This document shows, piece by piece, positions 14,175 through 23,834 of a stretch of 25,613 bases of DNA. The notes under the pieces are model-generated. The model saw nothing but the letters and a program-made list of their open reading frames with translations, was not told the DNA's origin and did no database searches. Location of the stretch: positions 1 through 25,613 of the IMG/VR virus record IMGVR_UViG_3300042544_003727. One strand, written 5' to 3'. This DNA comes from a virus. A program made the position numbers and the translations under genes. Position 1 is the first letter of the stretch, and each line of letters opens with the position of its first letter.

Positions 14175-14570
14175 TTAAAGAAGACTAATTTTTTTCTTTT
14201 CTTGTTTCTTGAAACCAGGAATAAACACAGTCAATAATCCATCTTCGATTGTTGCTTCAATTAATTCAGCATTATATTCTGTACCAAGTTTAAATTGTTT
14301 GTGGATTGATTTGGAAACTTCTTCACCATTAATTTTATATGTTCGGTTTCCTTCAATTGTCATAACACCACTTTCAATTTCCACCTTAAGGTTTGTTTTA
14401 TTAAATCCTGGAGCCTCGAAGAAAAGATATGCACCATCTTTTGTTTGGTTTACTTCATAGTTATTCTCTTCTTCCTTACCTTTGGTAATAACTGATGTTT
14501 TGTAATAAGAGTTTGGATTATTACCGAATACTCTTTCGAAAATACTGTCTAAATCTGAACCGTAAATCAT
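14175..14570 (-). CDS. Small heat shock protein (Hsp20/alpha-crystallin)
   Basis: This 131-residue protein carries an alpha-crystallin domain over about 38-131: NYEVNQTKDGAYLFFEAPGF, NLKVEIESGVMTIEGNRTY, then the FKLGTEYNAELIEATIEDGLLTVFIP strands. It ends KKISLL, with an I-x-L-like end that in this family helps oligomer contacts. Small Hsps hold unfolded proteins in a refoldable state and work with AAA unfoldases. The N-terminal arm is short (MIYGSDLDSIFERVFG). It is transcribed away from the Clp unfoldase gene across a 171-base intergenic region and is followed by its own terminator. T4-like phages of cyanobacteria also carry Hsp20 genes, so the gene alone is not unusual. Confidence 0.93.
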   Translation of the reverse strand: MIYGSDLDSIFERVFGNNPNSYYKTSVITKGKEEENNYEVNQTKDGAYLFFEAPGFNKTNLKVEIESGVMTIEGNRTYKINGEEVSKSIHKQFKLGTEYNAELIEATIEDGLLTVFIPGFKKQEKKKISLL

Positions 14571-14741: not shown

Positions 14742-16751
14742 ATGAATGACCTACTCGATGACGATGACAAAATGATGAGCAAAAAGAAATCTCAATCTGA
14801 TAGTTCAACCCCAGTGTTGGATAACTTCAGTAGAGATTTAATTAAATTAGCAGAACAAGGTAAACTTGATCCTGTTATTGGACGTGATAAAGAAATCATC
14901 CGTATTGCACAGATTCTTTCTCGTAGGAAAAAGAATAACCCAATTATTATCGGTGAACCAGGTTGTGGTAAGACCGCAATTGTAGAAGGACTTGCAATGA
15001 AAATCTACAACGGGGATTGTCCTAAAAATTTGATGGACAAAAGAATTGTTAACTTGGACATCAACTCAATAGTAGCCGGTACAAAGTATCGTGGACAATT
15101 TGAAGAGAGATTGAAAGTAATCATTGAAGAACTTCAAGCTAATCCAAATATTGTAGTATTCATTGATGAGATCCACACAATAGTTGGTGCAGGAAATGCT
15201 TCAGGATCTTTGGACGCATCTAACATTTTCAAACCAGCACTTTCTCGTGGTGAAATTCAATGTATCGGTGCAACCACTCTAAATGAGTATAGAACAAATT
15301 TCGAAAAGGACGGGGCACTTGAAAGACGTTTCCAAAAAGTTGTTGTAGATGGTGCGACAAAAGAAGAAACATTCCAAATTCTTCTTAACTCAAAAGAGAA
15401 ATACGAAACCTTCCATAAAGTATCTTACACTAATGAAGTATTGGATGCTTGTGTTAAACTTGCAGATAGATACATCACGGATCGTGAATTCCCTGATAAG
15501 GCATTTGATATCTTAGATGAAGTTGGTGCTCGTTGTCAACTGGAAATGAAAGTACCACAGGCAATCGAGGAGCTAAAACAAAAGGCTGCGGAAATCAAAC
15601 AACAAAAGTTGGACGTTGTTAAGAAACAAAACTATGAGCAAGCAGCTGAGTTAAGAGACAAAGAAAGAAAAATCATCGTTAAACTTGAAGACGCCAAGAA
15701 GAAATTCGAAGAAGAGATGAATCTTTCAAAACGTGAAGTTTCTTTGGAGTTGGTTTATGACGTTGTTTCAACAATGACAAAGATTCCAGTATCTAAGATG
15801 TCAATTGATGATACCAAGGCTCTTGTTAACCTTGATAAAATTCTTCAAGAGAAAGTTATTGGTCAAGATGAAGCAGTTCTCAAAATTGCAAAATCGATTC
15901 GTAGAAACCGTATCGGAATCAAAGATCCAAATAGACCAATTGGTTCATTCATCTTTTTAGGATCAACAGGTGTTGGTAAGACTCACTTGGCAAAACAATT
16001 GGCAAAAGAAATTTTCGGTACTGAAGATTCTTTAATCCGTGTAGATATGAGTGAATACCAAGAAAAACACACCATCTCCAAATTGGTTGGAGCTCCTCCA
16101 GGTTACGTTGGGTATGATGAGGGTGGTCAACTTACTGAACAAGTTAAGAACAAACCATACTCAGTAATTCTATTCGATGAAGTAGAAAAGGCTCACAGAG
16201 ATATATTCTCAGTTTTACTTCAGATCATGGATGACGGTCATGTTACAGATAGTTTAGGAAGAAAGATTAATTTCCGTAATACTTTGATTATCATGACATC
16301 TAATCTTGGTGTTAAGAAACTTCAAGACTTTGGTACAGGTATTGGGTTTGGTTCTTCCAAATACAGTAATGATGAAAAGAAAAAAGATGTTCTTATGAAA
16401 GAACTTAAAAATTTCTTCTCACCTGAATTCCTTAACCGTATTGATGATGTTATTACATTCAACAGCTTGAAAGGTGATGATATCAACAAAATCGCTGAGA
16501 TTGAAATCAAGAAATTGATGGTTCGTTTAAACGAAATGAACTATAAGATTTCATATGATCAAACATTAGTTGATTTCATTTCAAAAGTAGGATATGATGA
16601 ACTTTACGGAGCAAGACCTTTGAAGAGAGCAATTCAAGATAAAGTTGAAGATTTATTGTCCGAAGAAGTTCTTAAAGGAACTATCGAAGAAAACAAAAAC
16701 TATAAAGTAATTGTTGACGGAGAAGAGGTTAAGATTAAAAAGACAAGATAA
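14742..16751 (+). CDS. ClpA/ClpC-type double AAA+ protein unfoldase
   Basis: This encodes 669 residues. The first AAA module has Walker A GEPGCGKT (71-78) and Walker [10 protein letters not shown] (about 139-147). A short UVR-like middle segment follows ([14 protein letters not shown], about 295-310). The second module has Walker A GSTGVGKT (about 407-415), Walker [12 protein letters not shown] and the sensor-2 block [10 protein letters not shown]. It lacks the roughly 145-residue N-terminal adaptor domain of ClpA/ClpC; a short Asp-rich leader replaces it. The middle domain is far shorter than that of ClpB, so it is not a disaggregase of that type. A TGIGFG loop near residue 533 matches the IGF-type tripeptide by which Clp unfoldases dock on ClpP, so it may use host ClpP (inference). 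It diverges from Hsp20 and ends in a strong terminator. Confidence 0.93.
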
Positions 16752-16757
16752 AATTCG

Positions 16758-16785
16758 AACCCTCACAGAAATGTGGGGGTTCTTT
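16758..16785 (+). terminator. Intrinsic terminator after the Clp gene
   Basis: The arms AACCCTCACA (16758-16767) and TGTGGGGGTT (16772-16781) form a 10-bp stem with a GAAA tetraloop, followed by CTTTGTATTTAT. The stem is nearly identical in design to that after the receptor gene. Confidence 0.88.
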
Positions 16786-16786
16786 G

Positions 16787-16794
16787 TATTTATG
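16787..16794 (+). promoter_or_regulatory. TATTTATG element 3 bases before the zincin gene
   Basis: TATTTATG followed by ATT and ATG, directly after the Clp terminator tail. The same layout occurs before the last gene of the window (24367-24374). Confidence 0.4.
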
Positions 16795-16797
16795 ATT

Positions 16798-17454
16798 ATG
16801 ATTGATCTAATTAAACATTTAATGAAGGAACAACAGGAAGCTAGAAGAGCATCTCATTTTGACAGAATCATGGATAAATTCAGAGATGGATTCCCTGATG
16901 AGTACAAGAATGAAATTGATTCTATATCAGAATATGTCAAGTCTTTTATTAGAGAAAATAATTATACAATCAAATTTTTGAATAGCTGTTCAACAGGATT
17001 TAGTGGGGTTAGAACTGATAAAGCGGTCATTATATGTTCACCAAACTACATGGCAAGTATCGGTGATTTTTTGTATACTATCTTCCATGAAATTCGTCAT
17101 GAACAACAGATTTCAGTTTTCAAAATGGGAAACCCAACAATAGATAGTTTGGATGATTTCGAAGAACTATCTGAAAAATATTGGCAGATGGAATTGGATG
17201 CGGATTCTTTTGCAAAGAAAAAAATTGGAGAAATTGTTCTAAAATCTAAAATGCCAATAGAAATGGCTAAGATGTTATTCAGACTATCTCAATATATCCA
17301 AGAATACCCTTCATTGTCGAAAATGGTTAAATTTCAAATTGAAAAGATTGCAAATCAATTGAAATATATGAGAGATAGTGGACAAGAAATCAAAGATATA
17401 TCTGATCACCCCACTGTGAAGCAACATATGGAAAAATTAGAGGATTTTATTTAA
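16798..17454 (+). CDS. HExxH zincin-like metalloprotease
   Basis: The frame is open from a TTG at 16711 inside the Clp gene, but that start would cross the terminator; the ATG at 16798 (or 16792) is more sensible and gives 218 residues. FHEIRHEQQ contains HEIRH (97-101), the zinc-binding HExxH helix. About 30 residues on, MELDADSFA (Glu132, Asp136) resembles the ExxxD third-ligand segment of IrrE/ImmA-like and M48-like zincins. The N-terminal part is helical and charged, and the C-terminal part (150-218) is helical. Substrate is unknown. No signal peptide is seen, so it is probably cytoplasmic. It converges on the M20-like gene with a 4-base overlap at the stop codons. Confidence 0.8.
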   Translation: MIDLIKHLMKEQQEARRASHFDRIMDKFRDGFPDEYKNEIDSISEYVKSFIRENNYTIKFLNSCSTGFSGVRTDKAVIICSPNYMASIGDFLYTIFHEIRHEQQISVFKMGNPTIDSLDDFEELSEKYWQMELDADSFAKKKIGEIVLKSKMPIEMAKMLFRLSQYIQEYPSLSKMVKFQIEKIANQLKYMRDSGQEIKDISDHPTVKQHMEKLEDFI

Positions 17455-18290
17455 ATCCACAATCTATTTTTCTTCTGATATGGAACTGATTTTTTATAGT
17501 GTAATTTATAACCTAATTTCTCAATCATTTTCTTACCCATATTAATTCCGTTGTACACATCTTCAACAACAACATATTCATGTTTTGTATGATAACTGTA
17601 ATATCCTATTGAGAAATTAATACAAGAAAAATCGAACTTATTTCTTAAAGCCCAAACATCAGTGTAAGGATGAACCATGTATTCCATGTCATCATTATTC
17701 ATCCCTTCAGTTAATACTTCATTACAAGCCTGGTAGAATTCAGATTCTCGGTCGAATAGAACTTGACCAAAACATTTTTCTGTTATCATCCAATTTTCAG
17801 GTGCATCAAACTGAATAACATATCCAACGTTACTAAAAAACTCTTCATCTGCCTCTGAAGATCCGTGACATCCTGTTTCCTCAGAAACGAAGAAAGCCGC
17901 TTTCAAATATGGTAATTCAGTTAATAACTTTAAACAAGCAAAAACACCCGCCTTATCATCACCACCAATTCCTGTTGGATCCCCGTTGTCGTTATATGCC
18001 TTCAAAGATAATTTAACCTCACCTTGAGCATTCAACTTTTGTTCTTCAACAATATTGATAGTGTCTAAATTATGTACCGTGTCTGTATGTGCAACAACAC
18101 AAGGAAAATAAAAATCCTCGGGTACCATATCTTCAAACTTAGTAACGTATACATTGTTAGATTTATCCACATGATAATCTAAATTGTTTTCTTTACACCA
18201 ATTGGTGATATATTCCACCATCTTACCTTCTTGATAAGTTTTGGTTGGGACACTTAATACTGATTTTAAAAAATCTAAATCTTGAGACAT
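17451..18290 (-). CDS. M20-family-like zinc metallopeptidase
   Basis: I chose the ATG at 18290 (279 residues) over an upstream TTG at 18317, because a TATTTATA-like element lies between them. The protein has the M20 di-zinc layout: VVAHTDTV (His68 ligand, Asp70), GIGGDDKAG (Asp111/112), VSEETGCHG (catalytic Glu137, ligand Glu138), QFDAPE (Asp162) and a final YHTKHE with the last His ligand. M20 enzymes such as peptidase T hydrolyse di- and tripeptides or acyl-amino acids in the cytoplasm. At 279 residues it is shorter than peptidase T (about 400), so the dimerisation lid domain is probably lost or reduced. Next to Clp and zincin genes it could finish peptide breakdown (inference). Confidence 0.87.
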   Translation of the reverse strand: MSQDLDFLKSVLSVPTKTYQEGKMVEYITNWCKENNLDYHVDKSNNVYVTKFEDMVPEDFYFPCVVAHTDTVHNLDTINIVEEQKLNAQGEVKLSLKAYNDNGDPTGIGGDDKAGVFACLKLLTELPYLKAAFFVSEETGCHGSSEADEEFFSNVGYVIQFDAPENWMITEKCFGQVLFDRESEFYQACNEVLTEGMNNDDMEYMVHPYTDVWALRNKFDFSCINFSIGYYSYHTKHEYVVVEDVYNGINMGKKMIEKLGYKLHYKKSVPYQKKNRLWI

Positions 18291-18304
18291 TAATAATTGT
18301 TTGG

Positions 18305-18312
18305 TATAAATG
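18305..18312 (-). promoter_or_regulatory. CATTTATA element upstream of the M20 gene
   Basis: CATTTATA on the gene strand, 14 bases before the chosen ATG; one mismatch to TATTTATA. It sits at the end of the gene upstream, next to a 6-bp inverted repeat (AATGTA/TACATT). This supports the ATG start over the TTG. Confidence 0.35.
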
Positions 18313-18323
18313 TACAAAAAATT

Positions 18324-19364
18324 TTACATTCTACCAAATCCGAAGTCAAATAATTCAGGTTGATATAATAGATTGTAAAAATTTTCTTCGGAAACCTTTC
18401 TTTGCATACTCTTCAATTCATATCGAAGTGCAACAACAATTTTCATTGTGTCTTTATCAAAGTCTCTAATTGCAAACTGAACTCCTTTTAATTTTGGTAA
18501 ATTATACCAAACTCCCGGCTTAAATTTTGCAGTGATTCTATCAATCATTGCAATATAATCTTGTAAACTTTCACTATCCTCCAAGGTATCTTCCAATTTA
18601 TTTAAATAATTCCAAACGTCTCTATTGAAAGATTCAGAATCTAAATCTGCATTACTAAAATATTCCCAAGTATCATTACTCCACCCTCCAATATCTGTAT
18701 CTTCGAATGCTGTTTTGAAAAGATCTCTAAAGTTTAACCATATTTTTCCGTTCTGAACATATAACATTATCAAATGACCTACATCAATCGAAACCGCATC
18801 AAATTTATCGTGTAATTTGAAACCCTTTTCTTCCAAAGCTTTATCTATTTCACTTTCAACAACATCTCTGGCAGATGTATTTGCTGCGATTTCCTTTTCC
18901 ATACTCCAATTATCAACTAATCTATTTGTCTCCTTTTCGAAAAGTTTCAAAAGTATGTTAGCGGCTCTTTTATTTGACTCTTCATCAGGAAAATCACTAT
19001 AATCGAATCCAGGGTCGATAATTTTGATTACTCTTTTGAAAGTTTCTATGTTTTCTTCGTTAAAATCATAAAAAACATTATATCCTTGTTTGAAATCTTC
19101 ATCTGTCATTGATGAATCTTGGAAATTATATCCTTCACCATATGGATGAGTTACCACATTTGCAAACCAAGCATCGTCATCTCCGATATTCAAAAATCTG
19201 AAAAACTGATCGTTATCCTTGAAATCAAAAATTAACTTAGTTAACCCCTTTGTAGTGTTTGGTCTAATATCATATAAGTTTGAATCCGACGAATAAAGTT
19301 CACCAGTTTCAATCTGACCTTTTGTGTATTTTCTTAAATTTTGGAATAATTGTGAAGTTGCCAA
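18324..19364 (-). CDS. Phage protein of unknown function (TTG start)
   Basis: This encodes 346 residues. The start must be TTG at 19362-19364: an in-frame TAG precedes it directly and the next Met is near residue 86. The sequence is rich in Asp, Phe, Trp and Asn, with mixed alpha/beta character (for example TKLIFDFKDNDQFFRFL and GHLIMLYVQNGKIWLNF). I see no catalytic motif, signal peptide or membrane helix, and no family I can name. A TATTTATT-like element lies 15 bases upstream. It precedes the M20-like gene on the same strand, with a small gap. Confidence 0.7.
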   Translation of the reverse strand: MATSQLFQNLRKYTKGQIETGELYSSDSNLYDIRPNTTKGLTKLIFDFKDNDQFFRFLNIGDDDAWFANVVTHPYGEGYNFQDSSMTDEDFKQGYNVFYDFNEENIETFKRVIKIIDPGFDYSDFPDEESNKRAANILLKLFEKETNRLVDNWSMEKEIAANTSARDVVESEIDKALEEKGFKLHDKFDAVSIDVGHLIMLYVQNGKIWLNFRDLFKTAFEDTDIGGWSNDTWEYFSNADLDSESFNRDVWNYLNKLEDTLEDSESLQDYIAMIDRITAKFKPGVWYNLPKLKGVQFAIRDFDKDTMKIVVALRYELKSMQRKVSEENFYNLLYQPELFDFGFGRM

Positions 19365-19448: not shown

Positions 19449-19846
19449 GGGGATGTCCAGGTATTGATTGCAGTACTTAGGGTAGACAGGCACGTAGTCA
19501 GAATTCATCTATGACTCAAATCCACGGTGAAGACAATTAAATGGCAATACTTTTGCTAAGATGGCTGCTTTAGGTTTAACTAGAGAATCATCTGTTGTTG
19601 CTGCCTAAGGGGTAGAGAACAACGTTCGGGTCGGTTAGAGCATTAACCTAGGAACAGAAGCTCAATATACGGGTGACAGGTCAGAGCTCGTTTAAAATAA
19701 TTCTGAGACCAAGTTGTTTGTAGGTAGGGTTCTCACATATATCAAACCTAATATTTCGAAACATTGAGAATCAATGTTGTGCTAAACGTGTAGTCTGTTT
19801 ATGTTAATATTGTAAGACGCGGGTTCGATTCCCGCCATCTCCACCA
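19449..19846 (+). ncRNA. ssrA: tmRNA with a long, atypical tag
   Basis: The 3' part matches tmRNA closely: CTAAACGTGTAGT, then GACGCGGGTTCGATTCCCGCC (T arm) and CATCTCC-A-CCA. The 5' GGGGATG pairs with CATCTCC to form the acceptor stem. CCA is encoded. The tag frame starts at GGC (19543), five bases after TAAAT, at the spacing of UAGUC-GCA in E. coli, and runs 21 codons to TAA at 19606-19608. It starts GNTF and ends SSVVAA. Later segments can form H-type pseudoknots (GGTTA/TAACC with GAGC/GCTC; TAGGGTT/AACCTA with TTCTCA/TGAGAA). tmRNA with SmpB frees stalled ribosomes and tags the product for Clp-type proteolysis. Usual tags are 8-15 residues ending ALAA or similar. The D-arm-like 5' region is divergent. 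Confidence 0.93.
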
Positions 19847-19921
19847 AAACAAACAAAGACGGTGGTGGAACCCCTCTGTCTATAAATCCCAAAGACGCTG
19901 TCTTGATTCGCGGTATCAGAG

Positions 19922-19983
19922 CGGTGAGGGTAGAATCACTATAAGTCGGGAGTAGCTACCCAATGACGAAAATGTGATCACCG
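19922..19983 (+). ncRNA. Possible structured RNA between tmRNA and tRNA-Glu
   Basis: Nested complementary segments could fold into one long hairpin: CGGTG with CACCG, ATCAC with GTGAT, GTC with GAC and GGG with CCC, around an 8-base loop. An alternative pairing joins GGGTAG and CTACCC. No T-arm motif is present, so it is not an intact tRNA. No reading frame of note occurs in 19847-20038. It could be a decayed tRNA or a processing element; evidence is pairing only. Confidence 0.3.
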
Positions 19984-20038
19984 GTATAGGAATATATTGG
20001 TTATGATGTACGAACGGGTACGAAAAGTTTGTTTCTTT

Positions 20039-20549: not shown

Positions 20550-23500
20550 ATGAAAAAAACAATCATGATGTCACTTTTATCCTTTATGGTGGCGTTAACA
20601 TCTTTCGGGCAGATTACGACTTCGACCCTGTCAGGTGTTGTGAAAAATGAAAAGGGGGAAAATTTAGTGGGTGCAACAGTTCACGCTGTACACCAACCAA
20701 CAGGATCCGAGTACAAATCTCAGACAAACAAATCGGGTGTTTACACAATTCCTGCAGTTCGTCCTGGCGGTCCTTATGTTGTACACGTATCTTATGTAGG
20801 TTACAAAATGAAAGAAGTAACAGACATTAACACCTCTCTTGGTTTAACAAGCAACATCAATGTTGTTTTAGTTGAAGAATCAAAGACGTTGAAAGAAGTT
20901 ACCGTAACTTCGGGAAGAAATAACACTTTCTCCAAAGATAGAACGGGAGCATCTCAGGTTTTTGGAAGAAGAGAACTTCAAACTATTCCTATCACAGGAG
21001 CAAGAACAATTAATTCAATCACAAAGTATAATCCTTTGGGTGATGGATCATCGTTTGGTGCTGTTGATAGTCGTTTGAATAACTTCACAATTGATGGATC
21101 ACAATTCAACAATGGATTTGGATTGGGTTCTTCAGCACAAGCTGGTGGTAGAACAGGTTCAACAGCAATCTCTTTAGATGCGATTGACCAACTTCAAGTA
21201 AACATTGCACCTTTTGACATTCGTCAAAGTGGATTCGTTGGTGCTGGTATCAACGCGGTAACACGTTCAGGTACTAACAAAATTGAAGGTTCTTATTATC
21301 AGACACAAAGAGATAATAGTTCTCGTTATGTTGGTGATAAAGCTTACGGAGTTCCTGTAACCGCATCAAAATTCGATGAAGTAGTAAGAGGTTTCCGTTT
21401 AGGTGCACCAATCATCAAGAACAAATTATTCATTTTTGGTAACTATGAATTTTTGGAAAAAACTGAACCAGGTACTACTTGGACATCTGCAGGTTCACCA
21501 TTAGGTGGTGCTCAACCTACAAGAGTTCAATATAATGATTTGAAAACTCTTTCTGATTTCATGAAAGAAAAATTCAACTATACTACAGGTCCTTGGGAAG
21601 GTTATTCTAATACAAATGCTTCTTCAAAATTCTTAGTGAGAGTGGACTGGAACATCAACGACAAACATAAATTAACTGCTCGTTACGTTCATCACAACTC
21701 TGATGCTGAAATCAACATTTCAAATTCTCAATCAGCAGGTGCTGGTAATAGAACTACTCAATTCAACTCTATGAGTTATAAGAACAGTGGATATATTATC
21801 ATGGATAACACCCGTTCTGCGGTACTTGAATTGAATAGTAAGTTTTCAAACACTCTTCACAATAATTTGATTGTTGGATATGACAAACAAATTGAAGATA
21901 GAGCTTACATGTCAGGTGTTTTCCCAACGATTGATATCGCTGATGGAACATCTGCAAGGGTAAACTATATCACTACAGGATTTGATCCATTCACACCAGG
22001 GAACAAATTAGATTATAATACTTTCCACATAACAAACAACTTAACAAAGTATGCTAACAAACACACTTTAACCGCTGGTTTCAATTTAGAAAAGTATCAA
22101 TCTAACAACTTATTTTTCCCTGCTTCGAATGGTGTTTATATCTTCAACAGTTTGGCTGATTTCTACACTGCAGCTAATCAATCATTAGCTAATGGTGGAA
22201 AACCATCAACGTTGGCACCATTCAGATTCCAATACAGATATTCTGCATTACCTGGAGCTGTTGACCCAATGCAAACTTTGAAGTCAACTCGTTTAGACAT
22301 TTATGGTCAAGATGAATACCAAGTAAATGATAAATTGAAAGTTACAGGTGGTTTGAGAATTGCTATTATTGATTTCCAAAATACAGCTTTAGAAAACCCT
22401 GCGGTAACTGCAATGACATTCGCTAATGGTGAAAAATTCAATACAAGCGTATTACCTAAAACACAAAAATTGTTAGAACCAAGATTAGGTTTTAACTATA
22501 ATGTAAAAGGTGAAAGCAAAACACAATTTAGAGGTGGTACAGGTGTATTCACAGGTCGTCCTCCGTATGTGTTTGTTTCTAACCAAGTTGGTAACAACGG
22601 TGTGTTAACAGGATTTATTGATGTAAGTGGTGCAGCTGCAGCGGGATACGGTTTCACTGCTAACCCTGAGAAATATTTTATCCCTCAGACTCCAACATTA
22701 CCATCTACATTTGATTTAGCATTCACTGACCCTAATTACAAATTCCCTCAGGTTTGGAAAACTAATATTGCAGTTGACCAAAAATTACCTTTAGGGTTAA
22801 TTGGTTCGGTAGAATATCTTTACAACAAAAACATCAATGCTGTTCATTATTATAACGCAAACTTGAAAGATCCAGTTGGTAATTTCAGTGGAGTTGACAC
22901 AAGAGCGTTATATGCAAGAACCGATGCTGGTGTTAGAGTAAACAACAACGTATCTATGGGTGCTGTGTTAACTGAAAATGATGATACATACTACAACGCT
23001 CTAAGTGTTAAATTAGAAAAACCATACACTAAAGGTTTCTTTGGTAGTATTGCTTATACTAAATCTAACGCAAAAGATTTCATGAGTGCTGGTTCAATCG
23101 CATCAGGTTCATGGCAATCAATTAGAAGTGTTAACGGTAACAACAATCCATTATTATCAAATTCAGATTTCTTAGTTCCTGATAGAGCAGTCGGTTTGTT
23201 AGGTTACAGAATTGAATATGGTAAAAAGGGATATGGTGCAGCAACTTCAGTAACTTTAGGTTACGTAGGTCAAAGAAGTGGTGGTTTCTCTTATATCGTA
23301 GCGGGTGACTTAAACGGTGATAGAGTAAACAACAACGAATTGATCTTCGTTCCTAACAAAGGTTCTGACATCAAATTTGCACCACTTACAGTTGGTACAA
23401 GAGTATACACTGAAGCTGAACAACAAGCAGCGTTTGACGCTTATATCAGTCAAGATGATTACTTATCAACTCGTAGAGGTCAATACGCAGAAAGAAACTC

Positions 23501-23834
23501 TTCTTTCTTACCTTGGTTACACAGATTTGACTTATCTGTTACTCAAGATTTCTTCGTTAACGTTAAAGGTCAAAGAAATACAATTCAATTAAGATTTGAT
23601 ATCCTTAACTTCGGTAATATGGTGAACGATAAGTGGGGTGTTTCTCAAAGAGCAACAAACCCAACTATCTTAACTTATAATTCAGTTGTTAATAACGAAC
23701 CAGTCTACAGATTAGCAACTCAAAAATTTGCTGATGGAACAACAGGTTTACTAAGAGATACTTACAGCAGAAACTCATCAGTATTTGATGTGTGGACAGC
23801 TCAATTCGGTATCAGATATATCTTCGGTAGATAA
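20550..23834 (+). CDS. Oar-like TonB-dependent outer-membrane receptor
   Basis: This encodes 1094 residues. A signal peptide spans about 1-20 (MKKTIMMSLLSFMVALTSFG, cut before Q). A carboxypeptidase-regulatory-like beta domain covers about 25-110 (LSGVVKNEKGENLVGATV and VRPGGPYVVHVSYVGYK). A TonB-box-like KEVTVTSG follows. The plug domain, about 130-260, carries NNFTIDGSQFNNGFGL and APFDIRQSGFVGAGINAVT, both typical of Oar-like proteins of Bacteroidota and myxobacteria. A long beta-barrel ends in FGIRYIFGR. Length matches the family. Such proteins sit in the outer membrane and import ligands with TonB/ExbBD energy or serve in adhesion. The substrate is unknown. The gene is intact and has the window's TATTTATA element upstream and a terminator of the same design as the Clp one, so it appears to be part of this phage genome, which is unusual. 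Confidence 0.93.
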   Translation: MKKTIMMSLLSFMVALTSFGQITTSTLSGVVKNEKGENLVGATVHAVHQPTGSEYKSQTNKSGVYTIPAVRPGGPYVVHVSYVGYKMKEVTDINTSLGLTSNINVVLVEESKTLKEVTVTSGRNNTFSKDRTGASQVFGRRELQTIPITGARTINSITKYNPLGDGSSFGAVDSRLNNFTIDGSQFNNGFGLGSSAQAGGRTGSTAISLDAIDQLQVNIAPFDIRQSGFVGAGINAVTRSGTNKIEGSYYQTQRDNSSRYVGDKAYGVPVTASKFDEVVRGFRLGAPIIKNKLFIFGNYEFLEKTEPGTTWTSAGSPLGGAQPTRVQYNDLKTLSDFMKEKFNYTTGPWEGYSNTNASSKFLVRVDWNINDKHKLTARYVHHNSDAEINISNSQSAGAGNRTTQFNSMSYKNSGYIIMDNTRSAVLELNSKFSNTLHNNLIVGYDKQIEDRAYMSGVFPTIDIADGTSARVNYITTGFDPFTPGNKLDYNTFHITNNLTKYANKHTLTAGFNLEKYQSNNLFFPASNGVYIFNSLADFYTAANQSLANGGKPSTLAPFRFQYRYSALPGAVDPMQTLKSTRLDIYGQDEYQVNDKLKVTGGLRIAIIDFQNTALENPAVTAMTFANGEKFNTSVLPKTQKLLEPRLGFNYNVKGESKTQFRGGTGVFTGRPPYVFVSNQVGNNGVLTGFIDVSGAAAAGYGFTANPEKYFIPQTPTLPSTFDLAFTDPNYKFPQVWKTNIAVDQKLPLGLIGSVEYLYNKNINAVHYYNANLKDPVGNFSGVDTRALYARTDAGVRVNNNVSMGAVLTENDDTYYNALSVKLEKPYTKGFFGSIAYTKSNAKDFMSAGSIASGSWQSIRSVNGNNNPLLSNSDFLVPDRAVGLLGYRIEYGKKGYGAATSVTLGYVGQRSGGFSYIVAGDLNGDRVNNNELIFVPNKGSDIKFAPLTVGTRVYTEAEQQAAFDAYISQDDYLSTRRGQYAERNSSFLPWLHRFDLSVTQDFFVNVKGQRNTIQLRFDILNFGNMVNDKWGVSQRATNPTILTYNSVVNNEPVYRLATQKFADGTTGLLRDTYSRNSSVFDVWTAQFGIRYIFGR

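Follow-up and report, generated by a model that had tools for sequence, protein, structure and literature searches.

tmRNAs are known from mycobacteriophages (the Bxz1 group and Wildcat) and from Bacillus phage G (PMC4131195), were found in 402 of 18,146 phage genomes (PMC9004378), and are listed together with SmpB for huge phages (PMC7162821). The tmRNA analyzed here is likewise carried by a phage, whose host differs from those of the mycobacteriophages and phage G. It shares the phage setting and the idea of tagging under phage control with tmRNAs described for huge phages and for marine myophages such as Melnitz (PMC9004378, PMC7162821). It is a one-piece molecule, whereas that of Melnitz is two-piece and was described in a paper that does not mention Clp (PMC9004378), and no SmpB was found in the present clade to match the one listed beside the tmRNA in huge phages. 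Bacterial one-piece tmRNAs (RF00023) of the Bacteroidota type resemble it in the tRNA-like domain with G3-U70, the placement of the resume codon, the location of the stop codon in helix P5, and a covarying pseudoknot stem. They differ from it in tag length (9 to 10 aa, versus 21 in the phage) and tag sequence, with little similarity beyond the 3' end. Tags of length 10 are the commonest in the tmRNA database (PMC11915505). Neither this tag family nor the pairing of a phage tmRNA with a phage ClpC and ClpP came up in the papers searched, which are a limited part of the literature.

Long tags had been said by the initial annotation to occur in a few phages, and one was read in a 484-kb phage record (L239:1501-1947; LR756508.1:92434-92880), in which the frame opening at the GGC that follows TAACT encodes 36 residues, GVNNADYESAGFTAEDFAQMDGESLYHGSERKPAAV. 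ARAGORN picks another frame for the LR756508.1 tmRNA, and the same record carries a ClpC relative. Unusual ARAGORN tags were also obtained for two other phage contigs (L089:1471-1915 and L100:2448-2892), as a permuted form with 26 residues, GATIYDEMINGLQVATSERVSGLVMA.

The stretch of DNA under study (the window) is a 25.6-kb IMG/VR virus record with genes for a T4-type portal, a terminase, and an S77 prohead protease in its left part. The terminase has hundreds of relatives in IMG/VR, and its best matches among annotated phage records, a Flavobacterium myophage among them, are <30% identical. Among IMG/VR phage contigs, those that carry this kind of tmRNA are up to 317 to 321 kb long. In two 321-kb contigs, 344 bp are exactly common to both ends, inside a repetitive stretch, and these contigs are likely near-complete. 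The window appears to come from a T4-like (myovirus-type) phage, of which it is a fragment, in a clade with genomes of up to about 320 kb; this assignment forms part of the functional reading given below and shares the slight lean in its favor. The host of the clade probably belongs to the Bacteroidota, based on the outer-membrane barrel family and the distant matches to annotated phages. Coordinates of the features discussed are collected in Table 1.

Table 1. Features of the tmRNA locus and its neighborhood (window coordinates)
Feature	Position	Strand	Remarks
HSP20 small heat-shock protein	14175..14570	-	Pfam PF00011; kept adjoining ClpC
ClpC-type AAA+ unfoldase, 669 aa	14742..16751	+	Starts at D1, no Clp N domain; UVR-type middle domain
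IGF tripeptide at ClpP-docking loop position	16341..16349	+	Aligned with ClpC loop
Zincin-like putative metalloprotease	16711..17454	+	HEIRH and later ELDAD; start overlaps clpC end
M20/M42-like peptidase	17451..18317	-	PHROG 4191 peptidase, 123 bits; Pfam M20 slightly below cutoff
Divergent 346-aa neighbor gene	18324..19364	-	Adjoins tmRNA in relatives
tmRNA (ssrA), one-piece, CCA encoded	19449..19846	+	ARAGORN; Rfam RF00023 full length
Acceptor stem, 5' strand	19449..19455	+	G3 pairs with U, G3-U70 equivalent
Frame-setting AAAT 5' of resume codon	19539..19542	+	A at -4 corresponds to A86 of E. coli
Tag frame, 21 codons and TAA, GNTFAKMAALGLTRESSVVAA	19543..19608	+	ARAGORN; frame conserved in relatives
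Helix P5 around stop codon	19593..19624	+	5' strand encodes last tag residues
Pseudoknot-like element	19633..19663	+	GGTT/AACC and GAGC/GCTC stems
T arm, acceptor 3' strand, CCA	19819..19846	+	T stem pairing

Many independent contigs, one of them 321 kb long, repeat the order clpC, M20 peptidase, 346-aa gene, tmRNA, outer-membrane protein, and the gene neighborhood around the tmRNA was the same wherever those of relatives were examined. The 346-aa neighbor was present in 30 of the 41 records searched, with a tmRNA beside it in 29; the thirtieth (G007) gave no Rfam match because its contig ends inside the tmRNA gene, of which a partial copy was seen. A structure was predicted for this protein with a pLDDT of 88.9, and a fold search of the PDB with the model gave no significant match. 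The interval from HSP20 to the tmRNA also holds the zincin-like protein and the M20/M42-like peptidase. Residues H103, E104, H107, E138, and D142 of the zincin-like protein (HExRH and ELDAD) were invariant in 11 relatives, and family searches, including Pfam and PHROG, gave no match for it.

The window encodes a complete tmRNA. The covariance-model search suggested in the initial annotation matched the whole of RF00023 with 95.6 bits (E 2.2e-36; gathering score 47), and ARAGORN independently called 19449-19846 (+) with the tag GNTFAKMAALGLTRESSVVAA. A G3-U70 pair is the identity element for alanine. Acceptor pair 3 was G-U in 25 of 25 aligned relatives, and pairs 4 to 7 changed on both sides; pairing across the aligned relatives amounted to 97.7% in the acceptor stem, with two-sided changes, and 98.4% in the T stem, with two-sided changes at five of five pairs. 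Immediately before the resume codon GGC stands UAAAU, in which the A residues at -4 and -3 were invariant among the 25 aligned relatives; the counterpart of the former in E. coli, A86, is the position that sets the tag frame (PMC2481249). Helix P5 of the window folds with -13.2 kcal/mol (z -2.8), and at least four pairs enclosed the stop codon in 48 of the 49 distinct segments; the remaining one was that of the window, which was taken in incompletely. Of pseudoknots PK1 to PK4, one element 3' of the stop codon shows a strongly covarying stem, the second stem of the pseudoknot-like element (94% of cells paired and two-sided changes at all four pairs); its first stem was seen in the window sequence. 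A hairpin predicted at the resume codon (GGCAA/UUGCU) was rejected, having almost no compensatory change across relatives. A consensus scan for promoters found no clear one.

The tag frame starts at GGC 19543 and stops at TAA 19606-19608, and the initial annotation had its position, resume codon, length of 21 codons, and sequence right, as judged by ARAGORN, the A at -4, and an open frame in all relatives aligned. An RF00023 search of 48 records gave 15 above the cutoff, and pattern searches added many more relatives. With a profile built from the relatives, the family in IMG/VR phage contigs came to 58 distinct full-length tmRNAs with 46 distinct tag DNAs. The long tag that had been proposed as phage-specific extends across this clade: all family tags are exactly 21 codons long and lie in a homologous frame, G-N/K-T-F-A-K-M/L-x-x-L-G-L-x-x-E-x-x-V-V-x-A, in which the core residues K6, G11, L12, and E15 are unchanged. 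A pattern match without a tmRNA (L313), serving as a negative control, shows no such tag. All 25 aligned relatives had frame 0 open, and it was the only frame to stay so, a pattern well past anything expected by chance; stops occurred in frame +1 in 22 and in frame +2 in 25, and both a short frame +1 tag (AILLLRWLL) and a frame +2 tag were rejected on this count. ARAGORN misreads the frame in some relatives (L106 and a 321-kb contig) and returns AEEAPVVA or AEEATVVA. Gap columns numbered 0 of 66 in the tag versus 123 of 388 outside it (25 aligned relatives).

Plain pN/pS across the frames was weak (0.68, 0.75, and 0.96), and we therefore counted codon and residue changes by parsimony on a tree from which the tag had been left out. 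Over the 58 tmRNAs, codons 6, 11, 12, and 15 underwent 39 codon changes (11 at K6, 5 at G11, 18 at L12, and 5 at E15) and no amino acid change. To judge from these counts, the tag is under selection at the peptide level. Nine of the Leu12 changes fell at the first codon position, so that constraint on the RNA alone is an insufficient explanation. A third-position shuffle test gave modest support (P 0.02 to 0.05).

Among genomes from the phylum of a Chitinophaga genome, 141 of 148 had an above-threshold tmRNA. We read 34 bacterial loci, 4 of them drawn from a separate search, and the 32 readable tags all had 9 to 10 residues and ended in LAA or MAA, which bears out the earlier statement that Bacteroidota tags are short. 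At 21 aa and ending in VVAA, the window tag lies outside the Bacteroidota type (about 9 aa, ...ALAA). Matches of the phage tmRNA profile to bacterial tmRNAs were confined to the tRNA-like part at the 3' end. Searches of bacterial genomes with that profile and with TTAANTGGCAATACTTTTGC found no bacterial tmRNA with the phage tag, and at the 11 genome contig loci matching TTAANTGGCAATACTTTTGC no tmRNA was detectable. Neither of the two observations that the initial annotation had named as contrary to its proposal, a different frame or a host tmRNA with the same tag, was made.

In E. coli, ClpX reads the C-terminal residues of the tag. The initial annotation had reasoned from the greater length and changed end of the tag to a different protease or adaptor. 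The long, phage-specific tag stood, but the argument from the end was weakened: the tag end sits in P5 and covaries with the 3' strand of that helix, and VVAA alone is therefore no evidence for a new adaptor. The last four tag codons form the 5' strand of P5, and the ends vary widely across the family (AA, GA, VA, TI, EA, KA, AV, and TA), the opposite 3' strand changing to match; most tags end in A, often AA. Because the end residues vary together with compensating bases opposite, the unusual ends are partly RNA-driven. Even the conserved VV largely reflects a GUUGUU strand that pairs with AACAAC. The conserved core is better evidence for distinct recognition than the VVAA end.

The Clp unfoldase noted near the tmRNA is a ClpC in the window, and the relatives add a phage ClpP. 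In ClpC, the N domain is where adaptors and substrates bind. Compared with ClpC/MecB (PDB 6em8, 3j3t), the phage protein shares both AAA+ modules, the middle domain, and the [IV]GF loop but is without the N domain, which takes up the first ~145 residues; its phmmer alignment to 6em8 (E 1e-222) begins at ClpC residue 146-147. Pfam domains AAA_2, ClpB_D2-small, and AAA_lid_9 were found, Walker motifs are present in the two AAA+ modules, and the pore motifs are kept. GIGF occurs in all clade ClpC relatives that cover the docking loop. Clade records held 29 long or near-full copies of ClpC plus two partial ones at contig edges, and ClpC was present in 15 of 15 further long contigs. ClpP was identified in 21 contigs (8 of 34 records and 13 of the 15 long contigs). 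The two long contigs without a ClpP match end 4 to 9 kb after clpC, and most of the shorter ones end before the expected place, so that a missing match cannot be read as absence of ClpP. Where both genes could be placed, ClpP lay on the same strand, 15 to 26 kb downstream of the tmRNA and hence beyond the window; a ClpP in the phage of the window is inferred from these relatives. The phage ClpP matches nearly the full peptidase domain (PF00574, 187 to 196 bits) and keeps the serine and histidine motifs (GMAASMG and MLHQ), being like other ClpP in both respects and different in that it is phage-encoded. A search for SmpB in the 34 + 15 records gave no match, with bacterial controls positive. 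In the 321-kb relative (L337, L338), 32 kb were read, and the part between the tmRNA region and ClpP holds 23 tRNA genes that cover most amino acids.

The explanation that we favor, by a narrow lean rather than with assurance, is a working tmRNA that uses host SmpB and whose tag core is read by phage ClpC, with ClpP supplied by phage or host. During infection, the host enzyme (AlaRS) would charge the phage tmRNA with alanine, and host SmpB would deliver it into stalled ribosomes. Translation would resume at GGC, adding Ala and the 21-residue tag, whose core (K6, G11, L12, and E15) may be preserved because it is recognized as a peptide, the likeliest reader being the N-domain-less phage ClpC. 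As the N domain is missing, this ClpC would need either to hold the tag with its pore, in direct contact, or to rely on a hypothetical adaptor. Tagged proteins would then be threaded into ClpP, phage-encoded in relatives and possibly also the host's, and degraded, and the phage would recycle stalled ribosomes and dispose of truncated proteins on its own terms. This explanation draws on what was read from the sequences (the tmRNA and its frame, a tag selected at the peptide level, linkage to ClpC and ClpP, and no SmpB found); charging, use of host SmpB, recognition by ClpC, and degradation are its presumed steps, and proximity and shared presence are no proof of tag reading by ClpC. A stricter version, to which we give rather less than an even chance, is a host-independent tag-and-degrade pathway of this clade of jumbo phages in which phage ClpC, coupled to phage ClpP, would read the internal core, so that the products of stalled ribosomes would bypass host ClpXP during infection.

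The alternative that survives best, one we regard as unlikely yet still of some weight, is ordinary supplementary trans-translation, in which the products go to host ClpXP or another host protease for degradation and the phage Clp acts on, for example, host proteins or capsid assembly intermediates. The prevalence of alanine at the tag end fits this alternative, host Clp is expected to be present, and host ClpXP might accept VVAA; moreover, the sequence of the E. coli tag is not critical for tmRNA support of phage growth (PMC2481249). It accommodates less readily the position of the most conserved residues, which lie outside the C-terminus and have undergone many synonymous changes, the tags that end in TI, EA, KA, or AV, and the retention by the phages of their own ClpC and ClpP. 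We consider it improbable that the tag is something other than a degron, a long tail through which truncated proteins are stabilized, hidden, moved elsewhere, or protected against host ClpXP. The unusual length and non-ALAA ends would suit such a role, but an unfoldase with a ClpP-docking loop is retained with ClpP throughout the clade, and the hydrophobic end of the tag is kept. Very little probability attaches to a decoy RNA that titrates SmpB or host trans-translation and in which the frame is incidental: for DS6A, a phage form that consists of the tRNA-like part only, a role as inhibitor has been discussed (PMC4131195), but the present RNA has a complete open frame, no indels, conservation at the peptide level, and P5 around the stop codon in all relatives. 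A host tmRNA beside an integration site, or a chimeric contig, the least probable of all, might be suspected from the frequent use of tmRNA genes as integration sites and from the outer-membrane barrel gene after the tmRNA, but is strongly disfavored by synteny, the same gene order recurring in many independent contigs, one of 321 kb included, and no bacterial tmRNA of the phage family was found among the genomes searched.

For the favored reading, with a phage tag core read by phage ClpC, the finding bears on why phages carry tmRNA, as a viral tag unlike every bacterial tag read stands beside viral ClpC and ClpP. Since the tag is distinct, peptide-selected, and found with these two proteins, feeding from viral tag to viral protease is directly testable. 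If true, a phage would here have put its own pathway in place of one of host quality control, and it would offer an internally read, possibly host-independent pair of degron and protease for engineering.

Two further observations concern the DNA downstream of the tmRNA. The outer-membrane beta-barrel gene (20550-23834, +) encodes a signal-peptide-like start, a CarboxypepD_reg domain, and Pfam OMP_b-brl_4, and its product is 74 to 79% identical in several relatives. Between the tmRNA and a tRNA-Glu gene, a noncoding stretch (19847-20038, +) that had no match in Rfam is 79 to 92% identical in four other phage contigs. In the structure that RNAalifold gave for it, two-sided changes occur at six pairs (four sequences), making it a candidate for a new RNA.
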